A DNA stretch of 64,000 bases from assembly GCA_021325275.1 (NCBI GenBank), contig JAJPHL010000036.1, positions 1 to 64,000 on the forward strand, read 5' to 3'. Every line of letters starts with the position of its first letter. Within the stretch, counting starts at the first letter, position 1. The translations under genes were made by a program, and so were the position numbers. The notes under the pieces were generated by a model that made no database searches, was not told the DNA's origin, and was given only the letters and a program-made list of their open reading frames with translations. The DNA is from Terriglobia bacterium. GTDB taxonomy: Bacteria > Acidobacteriota > Terriglobia > JAJPHL01. This document shows positions 37,114 through 55,823 of this stretch, in pieces.

Positions 37114-37189
37114 GGGCACGTAGCTCAACTGGCAGAGCAGGGGCCTCTTAAGCCTCAGGTTGAAGGTTCGATTCCTTCCGTGCTCACCA
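37114..37189 (+). tRNA. tRNA-Lys (anticodon CTT), CCA encoded
   Basis: The cloverleaf folds fully. The acceptor GGGCACG pairs with CGTGCTC, the D-arm GCTC pairs with GAGC, and the anticodon stem GGGGC/GCCTC closes loop CTCTTAA with anticodon CTT (lysine). The T-arm GAAGG/CCTTC closes TTCGATT. The discriminator A is followed by encoded CCA (37187-37189). The 3' half is repeated at 39887-39926. Confidence 0.95.
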
Positions 37190-37190
37190 T
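37151..37190 (+). repeat. Left 40-bp attachment-like repeat within tRNA-Lys
   Basis: Bases from the 3' side of the anticodon stem to one base past CCA are identical to 39887-39926; sequence on both sides differs. Integrases commonly use the 3' half of tRNA genes, and an integrase fragment lies immediately inside. Confidence 0.8.
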
Positions 37191-37216
37191 CTCATTATCT
37201 GCCAGTACTTTCCGAA

Positions 37217-37440
37217 TCATCCAGCACTCGCCGGAACTGATTTTGTAACATCGTGTAACATCAGAGTCCTTGACGCTTCCTCTAGCGCGGCACCGAAATC
37301 CTCGCTGCTGGGGTGATGGTACCTGCCCAAAGTCATCCCTACGTCGGAGTGACCCATGATTCTTCAAAGCCAGATGTCGCGGGCTCAATCGCAACGGGGA
37401 ATATCCTCAACACCACGGTAACCTGCGTGATAGACTAACC
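37217..37440 (-). pseudogene. Tyrosine-recombinase (integrase) C-terminal remnant
   Basis: Reading down from 37357, the frame gives MGHSDVGMTLGRYHHPSSED and ends at a TGA at 37217-37219. This is the C-terminal box of tyrosine recombinases, including the nucleophilic tyrosine in GRYHH. Upstream the similarity is broken by stop codons (for example two codons before GRIMGHS-type sequence), and no catalytic arginines are visible. It lies 28 nt from the tRNA repeat, where an integrase is expected. The rest of the gap up to 37582 holds nothing recognisable. Confidence 0.65.
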
Positions 37441-37582
37441 GCGGCTTTCCCGGACTTAGCCGACGCGATAGTCTTCACTTGCAGGCTGGCCAGCCGAATC
37501 CCCGACAGCTTGAGTGCGTAAGTGTCTTGATTGGCCACACTCTGCTTCAATTGCCGACTGATGGCCCAAGAGGAGCACCTAT

Positions 37583-39733
37583 ATGAACCAAGCGAACCGT
37601 GGCAGCCTCTTCAGCTGCCGTCCTGTTCACGTCGGCGAACGATCATCAGCCAGAGAGTACTTGCAGATTCGCAGACTCGCCATAATTCTGCCGAGCCTCT
37701 TGGTTTTATGCGTCGCGGCCCATTCGCAGGGCATCATCTCCACCGTCGCGGGGAACGGCCAATCGGGCTATTCGGGTGACGGCGGTGCGGCGACAAGCGC
37801 GAAACTGAACGCGCCGAATGGAGTCGGCTTTGACGCCTCTGGGAACCTGTACGTCTTTGATGCCGGTAATCTCGTGGTTCGAAAGATCAGCGCCGGAATG
37901 ATTAGTTCGGTCTCTAGTTCAAATAGCATTTCCGAAGATGGTGGGGGAGTAGATGCGGTTGGCGATCTCTTCCTCATCGGCGTCAGCTATCTTTACAAGC
38001 TGCCGGTTGGGAGTCAGAACCTCCTTTTCGTCGCCGACGAACCGAGTTGTTGCAGCGTATTTCCTGATTTACACGGCAACGTGTTTTATGTTTCCGGCGA
38101 AAGCGTTGTAAAGATCCGTCCTGATGGAACTCCTATCACGACAGCGACACTTAATGCTTCGATCTCAGCATTGACCGGCGACGCAATCGGAAATCTGTAC
38201 GCAGCCGTCCTCGGAAATCATACGATTCGGAAGATCGACAGCAACGGTGTTGTCACAACAATCGCCGGAAACGGCCAAGAAGGCTTTTCAGGTGACGGGG
38301 GCGCCGCTACAAGCGCGAAACTAGATTCCCCTCACGGTGTAGCCATAGACGGAGCCGGCAACCTCTATATTGCCGATACCAACAATTTGAGGATTCGAAT
38401 GGTTAATCCCGCAGGAACCATCAGCACGGTTGCGGGCAACGGATTCTACGGCTTTTCCGGCGACGGTGGTTCCGCAACAAACGCGATGATGACGAATCCG
38501 GCCGGGATTGCGGTGGACGCTGGCGGTAATGTCTACTTTGCGGACACCAGCAACAACCGCATTCGCAAGATCACGGCTGGCGTTTCCGGTATCGTCGGCA
38601 CCTCTTCGGTCCAAGCACTGGCGGGGACAACTGCTACAATTCCGATCTCACTGAATCTTACGACAGGGACCGCTGCGAGTCTCAGTTTCAGTCTGGTAAT
38701 CACGCCAGTCGGAGGCGCTCCCGCGTTGACTGGGACGTTAGCGTTTCAGCAGGCCAGTGGCCTCCCAGTGCCGGACACGATTGACACCGGAGTCGGTTCC
38801 GGCACCATTAGCGTCTTTTGGTCATCTATTCCCACGCCGTTGACTGGCAACGTGGCCATCGGAAATGTATCTTTATCGATTCCCGCGACGGCCAGCATTG
38901 GACAAACTTACAGCCTTCAAATCACAGGTGCGAGCGGAAGCGCGGGGACCACGGCCGTAGTTCTTGGACCCAGTCCAAACGGACTCTTGACGGTCGCGCT
39001 TGACTATCTCGTAGGTGATGCTCTCCCCAATACAGGAGACAGCGCGGGATCGTTTGGCGACAGCATACTCAATACCCTCGATCTGATTGCTGCGCTACGC
39101 GCCGTCACCAATTTACCCGGATTCCGTCCGCAGTCCTGCACGGACCGCTTCGACGCGATGGATGCGTTCCCAGTGGACGCACCATCGGTACGGGGAGGAG
39201 ATGGTTTCTTGAACACCCTAGATCTAATCGAAACTCTTAAGCGAATTACGAACATTGACGCGTCACGTCCTCGGCGTGTCTCTCGTGCGCTCACATGCCC
39301 GACTGCACAGGTTGAGGCTTTGGAAAGTAAGCCTGGCGAAGCGTTGCGCACGGCGGGCAACCTTGTCTTCGGCGAGACCGAAGCAATTGAAACAGGTGTT
39401 CGCATCCCGGTATATCTGGAAACCTCGGAGGTGCTCTCTTTGGCGGCCTTCAGTTTCTCGTTGGGAGATGGCCGTTCGCAACTGAGTTTCGTCGCCGGAA
39501 CAGTGGGGTCCCCATCCATCGTGGATACGGGTGTACCGGGTGCCATAGCGGTCGCGTGGCTGTCCGGTTTTGGCACGTTGGCCAATCGGCGAATACTATT
39601 GGGATACGTCCGTATGCCATCTGGCGTTGACCTGACTGTCTACGGCGTCAACGCGAACGCGCAATCAGACGGTAGTGACGTGTCGCTGGGCTTCATTTCC
39701 TCACGGAAAATTGGAAGGCCAAAGGCTAGGTGA
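37583..39733 (+). CDS. NHL-repeat protein with cohesin-like and dockerin-like domains
   Basis: The 716-residue protein has a late signal or anchor segment (about 30-48, RLAIILPSLLVLCVAAHS), so a later start such as the TTG near 37661 is possible. NHL repeats (GNGQSGYSGDGGAATSAKL, GNLYIADTNNLRIRMV) fill about 50-345. A cohesin-like beta-sandwich follows (about 350-470). Then come two dockerin-like EF-hand repeats, GDSILNTLDLIAALRAVTN and GDGFLNTLDLIETLKRITN, and a second cohesin-like domain closes the protein. It is the only sizeable gene between the two tRNA-Lys repeats and is less GC-rich than its neighbours, suggesting transfer. Function is unknown; the domains suggest calcium-dependent assembly. 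Confidence 0.75.
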   Translation: MNQANRGSLFSCRPVHVGERSSAREYLQIRRLAIILPSLLVLCVAAHSQGIISTVAGNGQSGYSGDGGAATSAKLNAPNGVGFDASGNLYVFDAGNLVVRKISAGMISSVSSSNSISEDGGGVDAVGDLFLIGVSYLYKLPVGSQNLLFVADEPSCCSVFPDLHGNVFYVSGESVVKIRPDGTPITTATLNASISALTGDAIGNLYAAVLGNHTIRKIDSNGVVTTIAGNGQEGFSGDGGAATSAKLDSPHGVAIDGAGNLYIADTNNLRIRMVNPAGTISTVAGNGFYGFSGDGGSATNAMMTNPAGIAVDAGGNVYFADTSNNRIRKITAGVSGIVGTSSVQALAGTTATIPISLNLTTGTAASLSFSLVITPVGGAPALTGTLAFQQASGLPVPDTIDTGVGSGTISVFWSSIPTPLTGNVAIGNVSLSIPATASIGQTYSLQITGASGSAGTTAVVLGPSPNGLLTVALDYLVGDALPNTGDSAGSFGDSILNTLDLIAALRAVTNLPGFRPQSCTDRFDAMDAFPVDAPSVRGGDGFLNTLDLIETLKRITNIDASRPRRVSRALTCPTAQVEALESKPGEALRTAGNLVFGETEAIETGVRIPVYLETSEVLSLAAFSFSLGDGRSQLSFVAGTVGSPSIVDTGVPGAIAVAWLSGFGTLANRRILLGYVRMPSGVDLTVYGVNANAQSDGSDVSLGFISSRKIGRPKAR

Positions 39734-39886
39734 ACCGAACCGGCTACCGAGGCGCGTCTTTGACCTCAACCAGCGATTCTAGAGAAACCAACTCCTGTAA
39801 CAAGTGCGCTCAAAACTACCTACTTTCGCATACCGCTGATCTTGGGAAGCCGCTGAAGCAAAAGTGTTTTCGCCATATGAGCACCG

Positions 39887-39926
39887 AGCCTCAGGTTGAA
39901 GGTTCGATTCCTTCCGTGCTCACCAT
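39887..39926 (+). repeat. Right 40-bp attachment-like repeat (tRNA-Lys 3' half)
   Basis: It is identical to 37151-37190. The 5' half of a tRNA is absent here, so it is not a second tRNA gene but the far boundary of an integrated segment of about 2.7 kb. The 153 bp between the NHL gene and this repeat contain nothing recognisable. Confidence 0.8.
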
Positions 39927-41015: not shown

Positions 41016-41354
41016 TTGCGACCCGCAAAGTATCAACGCACTCCCGCCGTTACCCAAAGCAGCGGCAACATTTTTGCCGATCTTGGTTTCCAGGATCCGG
41101 CACGCGAGCAGATCAAAGCGCAACTAATGCTGCAAATCTTCCGCGTCCTCCGGAAACGTCGCCTCACGCAAGTGCAGGCCGCCGAGATTCTCGGCGTCCG
41201 GCAGCCGCAGGTGTCTGGACTGATGCGCGGGCAGTCCGGCGCATTCTCCGTGGAGCGTCTCATGGATTTTCTGGCGGCTCTTGGCCACGACATCGAAATC
41301 AAACTGAAACCCACTCGCAAGCCACACGGTGAAGTGTCGGTGCGTGTGGCGTAA
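41016..41354 (+). CDS. XRE-family HTH antitoxin-like protein
   Basis: The 112-residue protein starts with a TTG, the only possible in-frame start. It contains SSGNIFADLGFQDPAREQIKAQLMLQIF, then the helix-turn-helix LTQVQAAEILGVRQPQVSGLMRG, then FSVERLMDFLAALGHDIEIKLKP. This is the HigA2-type antitoxin layout, normally paired with an upstream HigB-type toxin; none is visible. A degraded copy of its 3' part lies at 41969-42106. Confidence 0.75.
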   Translation: MRPAKYQRTPAVTQSSGNIFADLGFQDPAREQIKAQLMLQIFRVLRKRRLTQVQAAEILGVRQPQVSGLMRGQSGAFSVERLMDFLAALGHDIEIKLKPTRKPHGEVSVRVA

Positions 41355-41368
41355 AGGCAATCCGGCAT

Positions 41369-41614
41369 CTATCCTGCGGGCGTTACGTGAGCCACCGGAA
41401 TGACGGCGGTCGTTTCCGCTGGGCGCTTGCCTGAAGCAATTTCGTGGACGGTCCGCAGAATGTCGGCGTTGTAATAACGGTTGCCGCAATTGTCACAGAC
41501 CCCAATCGTCACGTCCTCAAGAATGATAAAGCCGAGTCTGTGCTTAAACGACTCGCGCGCGATACGGCGCGGTCGCACAGTGCCTCTGCAATACTCACAA
41601 CGGTATCCGTACAT
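41369..41614 (-). CDS. YgiT-type zinc-finger protein (MqsA N-terminal-like antitoxin)
   Basis: The 81-residue protein has CEYC near the N-terminus and CDNCGNRYYNADI about 30 residues later, the two zinc-binding knuckles of YgiT/MqsA N-terminal domains. It lacks the DNA-binding domain of full MqsA. Such short proteins commonly follow a DUF4258 toxin, which is the gene upstream here (41663-41872), so the pair looks like a toxin-antitoxin module. Confidence 0.8.
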   Translation of the reverse strand: MYGYRCEYCRGTVRPRRIARESFKHRLGFIILEDVTIGVCDNCGNRYYNADILRTVHEIASGKRPAETTAVIPVAHVTPAG

Positions 41615-41630
41615 ATAAGGTCAGTTAAGG

Positions 41631-41872
41631 TCAGTTTACATCAATTCGATAAACCGTCACGATCAAGAGCCAGTCCTTGCGCACGAAACGACGACCCCGA
41701 CTAAGGTGCCGTTGTCCGCGGCTCCGTGGACGACGTATCGATTACCTCTCGGATCATTGCGGTCGATCCGCGCTACGCGTCCTTCGAGGATGGCTTGCTC
41801 GACATCCTCGATGTCCAAAATGTCCTCAGCCATTTCTTCTACAGCATGCGCCGTAAGATCGAAGTGGCCCAC
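41631..41872 (-). pseudogene. DUF4258-type toxin gene with a 3' frameshift
   Basis: The frame from GTG 41872 reads GHFDLTAHAVEEMAEDILDIEDVEQAILEG and RNDPRGNRYVVHGAADNG, as in DUF4258 proteins, then ends prematurely as VVVSCARTGS at 41663. A one-base shift after VVV restores FVRKDWLLIVTVYRIDVN and a stop at 41631, only 16 nt before the YgiT gene. Coding-like sequence (WIEKIRGLIR) also continues upstream of the GTG without an ATG. The gene is probably inactivated. DUF4258 is related to RelE-like toxins. Confidence 0.65.
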
Positions 41873-41968
41873 GCGTATCAGCCCTCGAATCTTCTCGATC
41901 CACGACTGCGGATAAGCAAGTGAGTATAACCTCTGCCGCCATAATTATCGAGTCAGGCAACCGCACTC

Positions 41969-42106
41969 GGGACTGAATGTGCGGGCCGCCCGGCGCGTTC
42001 TCCGTGGCGGCTCATGGACTTTCTGACGGCGCTTGGTCCGACATCGAGATCAAACTGAAGCCTCACTCGCAAGCCACACGGTGAAGTGTAGGTGCGAGTG
42101 GTGTAG
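41969..42106 (+). pseudogene. Degraded duplicate of the HTH antitoxin 3' end
   Basis: The segment matches 41218-41354 over its whole length, sharing GACATCGA and ATCAAACTGAA and the string CACTCGCAAGCCACACGGTG, but with several small indels and stops. It is the last 45 or so codons of a second XRE gene copy. It shows that a duplication flanked the DUF4258-YgiT pair. Confidence 0.7.
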
Positions 42107-42175
42107 TAGACATGCCGAGTACTCAGCAACAGCATGATTTGACCGGTCGTTCCGTCACATTGCGTGGTTTCGCAT

Positions 42176-53609: not shown

Positions 53610-53629
53610 ATATTAACCGTGGTTAATAT
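53610..53629. promoter_or_regulatory. Perfect palindrome over the Nramp start codon, likely metalloregulator operator
   Basis: ATATTAACCGTGGTTAATAT is a perfect inverted repeat (9+2+9) covering the first two bases of the ATG at 53628. TTAACC/GGTTAA half-sites resemble operators of DtxR/MntR-type manganese or iron repressors. A repressor bound here would block the start of transcription or translation. Confidence 0.6.
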
Positions 53630-54857
53630 GCGTGATTCACCTACATTTATTGAAAAGAAGGGACTCGCGTATTACTTCGGTCCGGCCTTCGTCGCCAGCG
53701 TCGCCTACATCGATCCCGGCAACTTCGCCACCAACATCGAAGGCGGCGCGCGCTTTGGTTACTCTCTTTTGTGGGTGCTGTTATGGAGCAACGTGATGGC
53801 CGTGCTCGTGCAATCGCTCTCGGCGCGGCTCGGGATCGCCACCGGACGCAGTTTGCCGCAGAACTGCCGCACGCACTTCTCGCGCCACTGGACGATTCTG
53901 CTTTGGATCGCCGCGGAAATCTCCGCCGTGGCCACGGATCTCGCGGAATTCCTAGGCGCGGCGCTGGGATTTTATCTCGTCTTCCACGTTCCGATGTTTC
54001 CCGCCGCCTTGCTCACCGGCATTTGCGTCTTCGGAATCCTGGCCGTGGAGCAACTGGGATTTCGGCGCCTGGAATACGTCATCATGTTCTTCGTCGCGAT
54101 CATCGGCGGCTGCTACGCCGTCGAAGTGTGGTTCGTGAAACCGCATTGGGGCGCGCTTCTCTCGGGCGTGATCGTCCCGCGCGTGGACTCCGACAGCATC
54201 TACGTCGCCGTCAGCATGCTCGGCGCGACGGTGATGCCCCACGTCGTGTACTTGCACTCGGCGCTCGTGCAGCATCGCCACAACGAAGACGCCGAGCATC
54301 GCCGTCAACATCAACGCTTCGAACTTTTTGACGTGCTCGCCGCGATGAACTCCGCGTGACTCGTAAATTCCGCGATGGTGGTGATGGCCGCGGCCGTTTT
54401 CTTCGGCCGCAAGGAAGCCGTGGTGACGATCGAAGCGGCACACTCGACGCTTGGGCCGCTGCTCGGCGGATGGGCGGCGCTTTTGTTCGGCATTGCGCTG
54501 CTGGCGAGCGGACTTTCGTCGTCCACCGTCGGCACGATGGCCGGCCAAGTGATCCTCGACGGATTCCTGAACATTCGCATGAGCATTTTTCTGCGCCGCC
54601 TGCTTACGATGATCCCCGCGCTCGCGGTGATCGGTTTCGGCTTCGATCCCCTGCGGATCATCGTGATGAGCCAAGTGTGTTTGAGTTTCACACTGCCATT
54701 CGCGCTCGTGCCGTTGATCCTGCTCACGCGACGCCGCGACGTAATGGGCGTAGACGCCAGCCCCACTTGGCTGCACGGGTCCGCGTGGCTCTCGGTGACC
54801 GTGATCCTCGCGCTGAACGCGTTGTTGCTCTATCAGACGTTTGGCGGCAAGTTCTAG
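53628..54857 (+). pseudogene. mntH: Nramp-family Mn/Fe transporter interrupted by in-frame TGA
   Basis: Translation from ATG 53628 gives AYIDPGNFATNIEGGARFGY, the DPGN metal site of Nramp transporters, and later ATVMPHVVYLHSAL, the MPH site. The frame stops at a TGA (54357-54359) in AAMNSA*LVNSAMVVMAAAVFF, exactly where relatives have an uninterrupted helix. The same frame continues without gap to 54857 (ending TFGGKF). A single substitution, for example TGG or GGA to TGA, explains it. It is a nonsense allele, a split gene or a sequencing error. About ten membrane helices are predicted in total. Confidence 0.75.
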
Positions 54858-54859
54858 AG
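54838..54859. repeat. 22-bp direct repeat, left copy
   Basis: It begins CGTTTGGCGGCAAG and contains the Nramp stop codon. It is identical to 55791-55812. The stop codon of the minus-strand membrane gene also lies within it. Confidence 0.8.
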
Positions 54860-55258
54860 AGGATCCGTGGTTGGTTTGGTAACGGCAAATATGATGAAGC
54901 ACCCGCTGGCTAGGGCCACCACGGCGCCGGCGCGAAGGAGCGCGGATCCCTGCATGCCCTCCCATTCCATGATCGCGCGGGCGTGATTAAGTCCGAGGAG
55001 CGTCGCCGAAAGTCCTTGCAGGCACACCACGCCTCCCAACGCGCGAAGCGTTCTGGGCCAGCGAGAGTTTGAGGCAGCCAGGATCAATCCGAGACCCATG
55101 GCAAAGCGAACGGCACCCGCGGCATAGAACAGGCTGGGCGTCGCGAAGTACAATCGGCGAAGCGCCATCACGTTTTCCGGGGAAGCGAGGCCCGCGATGC
55201 CAACCGCAATGCTGAACAGAGCGACGGGCCACGCGGCAATTCTCAGGTCTTTTTTCAT
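54854..55258 (-). CDS. Four-helix membrane protein, predicted target of the MerR regulator
   Basis: The 134-residue product has four predicted membrane helices (about 8-25, 40-60, 72-90 and 108-125). Start 55258 has GGAGG 9 nt upstream; an earlier start at 55294 would overlap the promoter. No family is recognised; the size is reminiscent of small mercury-transport or DoxX-like proteins, but I see no cysteine pair. Its promoter has the distorted 19-nt spacer typical of MerR-activated genes, and the regulator is divergently encoded, so a heavy-metal or stress role is inferred. Confidence 0.65.
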   Translation of the reverse strand: MKKDLRIAAWPVALFSIAVGIAGLASPENVMALRRLYFATPSLFYAAGAVRFAMGLGLILAASNSRWPRTLRALGGVVCLQGLSATLLGLNHARAIMEWEGMQGSALLRAGAVVALASGCFIIFAVTKPTTDPL

Positions 55259-55285
55259 TCGATCCTCCAACGCTACTATCGGATG

Positions 55286-55316
55286 AGTTAACACCCTGTA
55301 GCGACTACAGAGTCAA
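55286..55316 (-). promoter_or_regulatory. MerR-type promoter and operator
   Basis: On the minus strand, TTGACT (-35, 55316-55311) and TTAACT (-10, 55291-55286) are separated by 19 nt holding the dyad CTGTAGTCGCTACAG. This matches the classical heavy-metal MerR/CadR/ZntR promoter, where the over-long spacer is untwisted by the metal-bound regulator. Confidence 0.85.
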
Positions 55317-55343
55317 GCTGAAAGAAACGGAAGGTCTGAACAG

Positions 55344-55823
55344 ATGACAATCGGCGAGCTCGCGCGGCGAACGGGATGCGGAATCGAGACGATTCGGTAT
55401 TACGAGCATGAAGGCTTGCTGCCAAAACCCAGTCGGACCAGCGGGAACTTTCGACGCTACCACCAGGAGCACGCCGAACTGCTATCGTTCATTCGGCATT
55501 GCCGTTCCCTGGATATGGCGTTGAACGAAATCAAGATCTTGCTCAGATTTCGCTCCGCGCCAGGCGAGAACTGTGGTGAGGTCAATGTGTTGTTGGATAC
55601 CCATATTGGTCACGTGGAAGGGCGCATCGCGGAACTGCAAAGCCTGGAGGGACAGCTTAAGGGGCTGCGGGACAAATGCAGCAGGGGGAAATCGGCGGAG
55701 CACTGTGGGATTTTGCAGGGACTTGGTCGTGCCGCCGATGGCCGCGACAGAACCGCCGACAATCATGTTCCGCGTACGCATTCGGCCAAGCGTTTGGCGG
55801 CAAGTTCTAGAGGTCGCGTTTGA
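55344..55823 (+). CDS. MerR-family regulator, CadR/PbrR type
   Basis: The 159-residue protein starts with the MerR winged helix (MTIGELARRTGCGIETIRYYEHEGLLPKP, FRRYHQEHAELLSFIRHCRSLDM). A dimerisation helix and metal loop follow with three cysteines in the Cd/Pb pattern: NCGEVNVLLDTHI, DKCSRGKS and EHCGILQGL. It should sense divalent soft metals and activate the divergent membrane gene. After CGILQGL the tail (about 30 residues) is unlike relatives; its last residues (KRLAASSRG) are encoded by the right 22-bp repeat, so the original C-terminus was probably replaced. Confidence 0.85.
   Translation: MTIGELARRTGCGIETIRYYEHEGLLPKPSRTSGNFRRYHQEHAELLSFIRHCRSLDMALNEIKILLRFRSAPGENCGEVNVLLDTHIGHVEGRIAELQSLEGQLKGLRDKCSRGKSAEHCGILQGLGRAADGRDRTADNHVPRTHSAKRLAASSRGRV
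55791..55812. repeat. 22-bp direct repeat, right copy
   Basis: Identical to 54838-54859, inside the 3' end of the MerR gene. The two copies bound a segment of about 0.95 kb holding the MerR regulator and its target. Confidence 0.8.

Follow-up and report, generated by a model that had tools for sequence, protein, structure and literature searches.

We conclude that a horizontally acquired two-gene fragment was probably inserted just past the stop codon of an Nramp gene of a Terriglobia bacterium (assembly GCA_021325275.1), with 20-22 bp of the Nramp end being duplicated in a repair-type joining event. The insertion itself is well supported. The letters of the locus show that a duplication is present, that its left copy is native, that the insert is foreign and rare and that both of its genes are fused to target DNA, and from this we infer that the duplication originated in repair-type joining. 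The locus lies in a window of 64,000 nucleotides (contig JAJPHL010000036.1, positions 1 to 64,000) and comprises the features given below, where G176 is a genome of the same class that belongs to another family.

53628-54857, plus strand: Nramp/MntH-type metal transporter gene, the insertion target (PF01566 in both halves, 3.1e-78 and 1.2e-38)
54838-54859, plus strand: left 22-bp repeat copy, the native Nramp 3' end (QTFGGKF and stop) plus 2 bp; holds the TAG stop of the minus-strand gene
54854-55258, minus strand: small membrane-protein gene, about 134 aa, weakly DUF4345-like (PF14248, E=4.7e-4, below the gathering score)
54860-55790, no strand: inserted segment, 931 bp (or to 55792, CG being common to the insert end and the repeat); homology to G176:C30 from about 54875 to 55792
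55286-55316, minus strand: predicted leftward MerR-type promoter, TTGACT (55316-55311), 19-bp spacer, TTAACT
55344-55823, plus strand: CadR/PbrR-type MerR regulator gene (TIGR02047; G176 homologue 81% identical)
55791-55812, plus strand: right 22-bp repeat copy, the target duplication, an exact match to the left copy

Identification of a duplicated Nramp gene end

A previous sequence-only reading of this DNA had described identical 22-bp copies flanking a short segment, the left one coding for the Nramp C-terminus and the right one supplying the regulator's last codons, and all of this was confirmed. The left copy also includes the Nramp stop, and the regulator closes with ..AKRLAASSRGRV and stop. 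The 22-mer, CGTTTGGCGGCAAGTTCTAGAG, is present at 54838-54859 and 55791-55812 (start-to-start distance 953 bp) and, even when 3 mismatches are allowed, nowhere else in the 6.86-Mb genome; the DNA to the right of the second copy, from 55813, reads GTCGCGTTTGATGCAG. Shuffled versions of the window contained no such repeat pairs. In a third-order Markov simulation, the number of exact pairs within 3 kb per 1.75 Mb was 108 for 14-mers, 14 for 16-mers and 0.67 for 18-mers, and extrapolation of this roughly tenfold drop per 2 bp gives about 0.01 close 22-bp pairs by chance per 1.75 Mb. The close repeats found in 1.75 Mb of the genome belong mostly to paralogous or repeat-protein genes, and the 22-mer pair is among the few without flanking similarity.

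The Nramp genes of relatives, the nearest named of which are Acidobacteria, end before their stop codons with LYQTFGGSF (L016, L066), LYKTIGGTF (L012, L068) or FQTFGGRF (L069). The likeness of these ends identifies the left copy as the native one. Among 30 Nramp relatives, no case of a duplicated 3' end was found. The Nramp frame in the window is interrupted by an in-frame TGA (54357-54359), at which the five relative sequences compared have Trp; this indicates a pseudogene or a sequence error, readthrough being unlikely, so that the intact gene end need not be put down to selection for the transporter.

Analysis of the insert junctions

In G176 the regulator gene ends with ..CGTACGCATTCGACCAAGCGATAG (THSTKR and stop), while in the window it reads ..CGTACGCATTCGGCCAAGCG and is then continued by the right repeat copy, the G176 regulator end coinciding exactly with the start of that copy. 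This indicates that the foreign DNA stops within the regulator's last sense codon and that the duplication measures 20-22 bp, the 2 bp CG being common to insert and target at the right junction. The native part of the regulator thus stops at 55792, beyond which the final 9 codons are supplied by the right repeat and the downstream DNA. On the left side, similarity to G176 and to another class genome, G132, fades near 54875, a few codons before the stops of the proteins in those genomes; the stop codon of the minus-strand membrane-protein gene (54854-54856) lies inside the left repeat, and its last codon or codons derive from the junction and the repeat. Both genes are fused to target DNA at their last codons, with both stops supplied by the new flanks.

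There are no terminal inverted repeats, the two 60-bp ends of the insert have no common stretch of at least 6 bp, and the insert contains no recombinase or transposase gene. Its right end is ordinary regulator coding sequence, common to G176, at which no attC-like site was seen. A faint TAGAG/TCGC resemblance just past the regulator end in both the window and G176 was judged to be coincidence.

Genes and promoter of the insert

The regulator satisfies the TIGR02047 equivalog model (170.1 bits, cut-off 151.45), while the membrane protein scores 20.6 bits with PF14248 (DUF4345), below the gathering threshold of 26.5 bits. The 19-bp spacer of the leftward promoter holds a perfect 15-bp dyad, CTGTAG-CGA-CTACAG (55296-55310), which is identical in G176, and the divergent membrane-protein gene is probably under the control of the CadR-like regulator. 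The pair resembles CadR/PbrR regulons in that a regulator of the Cd/Pb MerR subfamily is encoded here and a dyad promoter with a 19-bp spacer faces the divergent gene, but in place of a P-type ATPase or another efflux gene the target encodes a small, DUF4345-like membrane protein. The pair presumably persists because it functions as a unit, in which regulator, operator and target gene travel together.

Foreign origin of the insert

The regulator is present in 2 of 299 class genomes and the membrane protein in 6, with more than 60% identity in only four (the source genome being included in the counts for the regulator and for these four); its relatives in G176, G132 and G295 are 61-77% identical. 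Outside the source genome (G000), G176 is the only one of the 299 to hold both genes together, in the same divergent order. The cassette proteins of the two genomes share 77-81% identity (dS 0.40-0.55, dN/dS 0.27), whereas for the oxidoreductase adjoining the insert the best match in G176 reaches 60% identity, which argues for transfer followed by purifying selection. No close copy of the cassette was found on plasmids or viral contigs, plasmids giving distant cadR similarity only.

The neighbors of the G176 cassette are a DUF4159-type gene on one side and glnB on the other; in G132 these two are adjacent (about 100 bp apart) without the cassette, so the pair probably reached the G176 locus independently. 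The G176 copy carries extra flank on both sides, and hence the two insertions do not have common ends. The sequence-only reading had proposed a search for other loci at which the cassette is flanked by a duplicated gene end; the G176 copy lacks the 22-mer, and its own flanks match over 11 bp only. It had also proposed a search for relatives in which Nramp is joined directly to the sequence at 55813, and no relative found has Nramp beside the downstream genes: when up to 299 class genomes, among them no second member of the source's family, were searched with the Nramp DNA and protein, the downstream oxidoreductase and the 61-aa ORF, neither shared synteny nor an empty site was detected.

Comparable inserts elsewhere in the genome

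A post hoc survey of 1.75 of the 6.86 Mb, with ORF-based gene calls and cases assigned by eye, revealed other short inserts bounded by duplicated gene ends, in which no recombinase gene was seen and several of which carry toxin-antitoxin-like genes.

G000:C8 28861-29651 (L184): pgk 3' end, 67 bp at 92%, 0.73 kb apart; nucleotidyltransferase gene (PF01909) and downstream partner frame
G000:C14 22346-22917 (L190): 5' end of a molybdopterin-oxidoreductase gene, 42 bp at 95%, 0.53 kb apart; HicA toxin gene (PF07927) and HicB-like gene
G000:C17 99234-100433 (L125-L126): 3' end of the gene for a 259-aa protein, 28 bp exact, 1.17 kb apart; two-gene insert
G000:C1, L101 9966-10866: tRNA-Gly 3' end, 45 bp, 0.82 kb; single DUF6036/AbiEii-like nucleotidyltransferase gene
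Window 37114-39926: last 40 bp of tRNA-Lys(CTT) duplicated 2.7 kb downstream; NHL-repeat protein gene (37583-39733), no integrase
G000:C11, L187 1059-6714: tRNA-Arg(TCT) and two further partial 3'-end copies, like a stacked array

The right copy of the pgk repeat begins directly after the stop codon of the partner frame, and one gene of the G000:C17 insert weakly matches the candidate defence family PDC-M28A. The cases at tRNA genes could well belong to a separate class that depends on integrases.

Two further observations were made alongside these. In a distant class member, of which 400 kb were surveyed, an ArdC-type gene is flanked by a gene 3' end repeated over 103 bp at 96% (G283:C1 327871-329391, L228). 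In the window, the 3' part of a HigA-like antitoxin gene recurs, incomplete and degraded, about 0.75 kb downstream of that gene (41224-42115).

Discussion

The sequence-only reading had taken the segment for a small cassette integrated at the Nramp 3' end by a gene-cassette-like system. What stands of this is that a small foreign regulator-target segment was inserted and the Nramp end duplicated, as supported by the match of the left copy to the Nramp ends of relatives, the position of the G176 regulator end and the near-absence of the gene pair from the class. A gene-cassette-like site-specific system, on the other hand, was not supported: neither a recombinase nor a terminal inverted repeat was found at the insert, its right end reads as regulator coding sequence, no integron integrase above cut-off was found in the genome, and none of the 30 Nramp ends is duplicated. 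The best match to TIGR02249 in the genome (97.6% complete) scored 88 bits, with a cut-off of 265. The insert resembles an integron gene cassette in being a compact gene-sized unit with ends near stop codons, but it holds two divergent genes with their own promoter and target DNA has been duplicated.

Repair-type capture could have proceeded in two ways: (i) a staggered break would have been opened, the foreign fragment ligated in and the ends filled in, for which Ku and a LigD-type ligase (920-aa frame) are encoded in the genome, or (ii) replication would have switched template to the fragment and returned about 20 bp upstream at the 2-bp CG microhomology. The repeats vary in length, no ends or enzymes were recognized, and the genome has both Ku and LigD, all of which favors such a capture. 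Conventional NHEJ is reported to be enriched in Acidobacteria (PMC7719229), and a link has been drawn between bacterial NHEJ and the gain of heterologous DNA by the cell (Dupuy et al. 2019, as cited in PMC7719229). Against this explanation stand the edges of the insert, which fall within one or two codons of the native stops of both genes; the other inserts also finish 0-17 bp from a stop codon, and random capture predicts looser edges. Of all observations, this trimming to gene limits argues most strongly for something more specific than repair capture. The second copy of the 22-mer may also have already been on the incoming DNA, which we likewise count against our explanation, together with the negative search for an empty site in which the Nramp end is joined to 55813.

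Tight edges would be better accommodated by a non-autonomous circular element of 0.95 kb whose attachment site matches the Nramp 3' end. A tyrosine recombinase would have inserted it in trans, with the gene end being restored as by tRNA-targeting islands. Restoration of gene ends is typical of integrases, the 3' end (40-47 bp) is duplicated at three of the seven tRNA genes in the 1.75 Mb with no integrase gene seen in the inserts between, and the genome encodes two tyrosine-recombinase-like frames, which score below the integron-integrase cut-off. We nevertheless regard this as unlikely, though ahead of the other alternatives, since no second element occurs at this end in the 30 Nramp relatives, the G176 cassette lies at another locus without the 22-mer, the repeat shows neither a visible dyad nor arm-type sites, and one of the comparable inserts duplicates the 5' rather than the 3' end of a gene. 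With no integrase in the insert and no repeat at the Nramp ends of the relatives, the locus was not classed as a site-specific integrative element. Elements at tRNA or gene 3' ends that lack their own integrase (cis-mobilizable, tycheposon-like) are similar in having a duplicated gene end on both sides and a restored target end, but here the target is protein-coding, the insert measures 0.93 kb only, and there is no evidence of a recombinase or attachment site. Tycheposons are described as cargo elements of 4-200 kb, the example given having a tyrosine recombinase and being bordered by a tRNA (PMC10872708).

Homologous recombination is a less probable route still. Here the cassette would already have lain beside an Nramp gene in a donor closely related to this species, and a circle or fragment with one Nramp end would have recombined with the resident end so that two copies remained; a similar model has been put forward for plant genes that were transposed and are flanked by repeats (PMC2869330). 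Variable repeat lengths would be accounted for in this way, but an earlier Nramp-cassette junction is required, of which no relative gives evidence. Furthermore, 22 bp is a very short substrate for RecA-type exchange.

Transposition of a mobile insertion cassette or IS type with an unusually long target duplication is very improbable. Target duplications of more than 20 bp have been reported for some insertion-sequence groups, but the insert has no transposase, its right end is regulator coding sequence common to G176, and the absence of terminal inverted repeats speaks against an IS, a MITE or a mobile insertion cassette. The comparable scars of 28, 42 and 67 bp and the tRNA repeats of 40-47 bp are also a poor fit to a transposase with a fixed stagger. 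Coincidence or an old local duplication, with no insertion involved, can practically be dismissed, since about 0.01 pairs are expected per 1.75 Mb (extrapolated), the insert is foreign with its homology stopping at the repeat, and no observation in support was found.

The closest known counterpart of the insertion with repair-type duplication favored here is insertion with long target duplication, which was described for restriction-modification genes (Nobusato et al. 2000, Gene 259:99); strain comparison revealed duplications of around 100 bp there, both points being taken as cited in PMC3874152 and PMC1643837. Common to both are small gene units, the lack of a linked transposase or integrase and a direct target duplication of variable length; here the left repeat is the native Nramp end and the right one replaces the native end of the regulator, as expected of a duplicated target. 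The present case differs in that 20-22 bp are duplicated at a gene end, that the cargo is a metal-responsive regulator pair and that it is known from one genome. Neither a duplication of about 100 bp nor restriction-modification cargo, as in the first description, is found here, and the other cases in the genome have 28-67 bp. Because cargo and repeat length differ and a strain comparison is lacking, we file the locus as a variant rather than a plain member of this class.

The entry of very small, transposase-less gene units into bacterial genomes has so far been poorly explained. At this locus the target, the duplication, the insert ends and a donor-like homologue can all be read, and together with the parallel cases and the NHEJ pathway this makes the question testable. 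A tentative reading, which we consider rather doubtful, is that this lineage recurrently acquires units of about 0.5-1.4 kb (toxin-antitoxin genes, a nucleotidyltransferase with its partner, regulator-target pairs) that are trimmed to a few bases from their last stop codon and placed at host gene ends, a duplication of 20-100 bp keeping the host gene intact, with no linked recombinase. If true, this would imply a dedicated trans-acting factor. The locus also shows that a regulator, its operator and its target can move as a unit of less than 1 kb.
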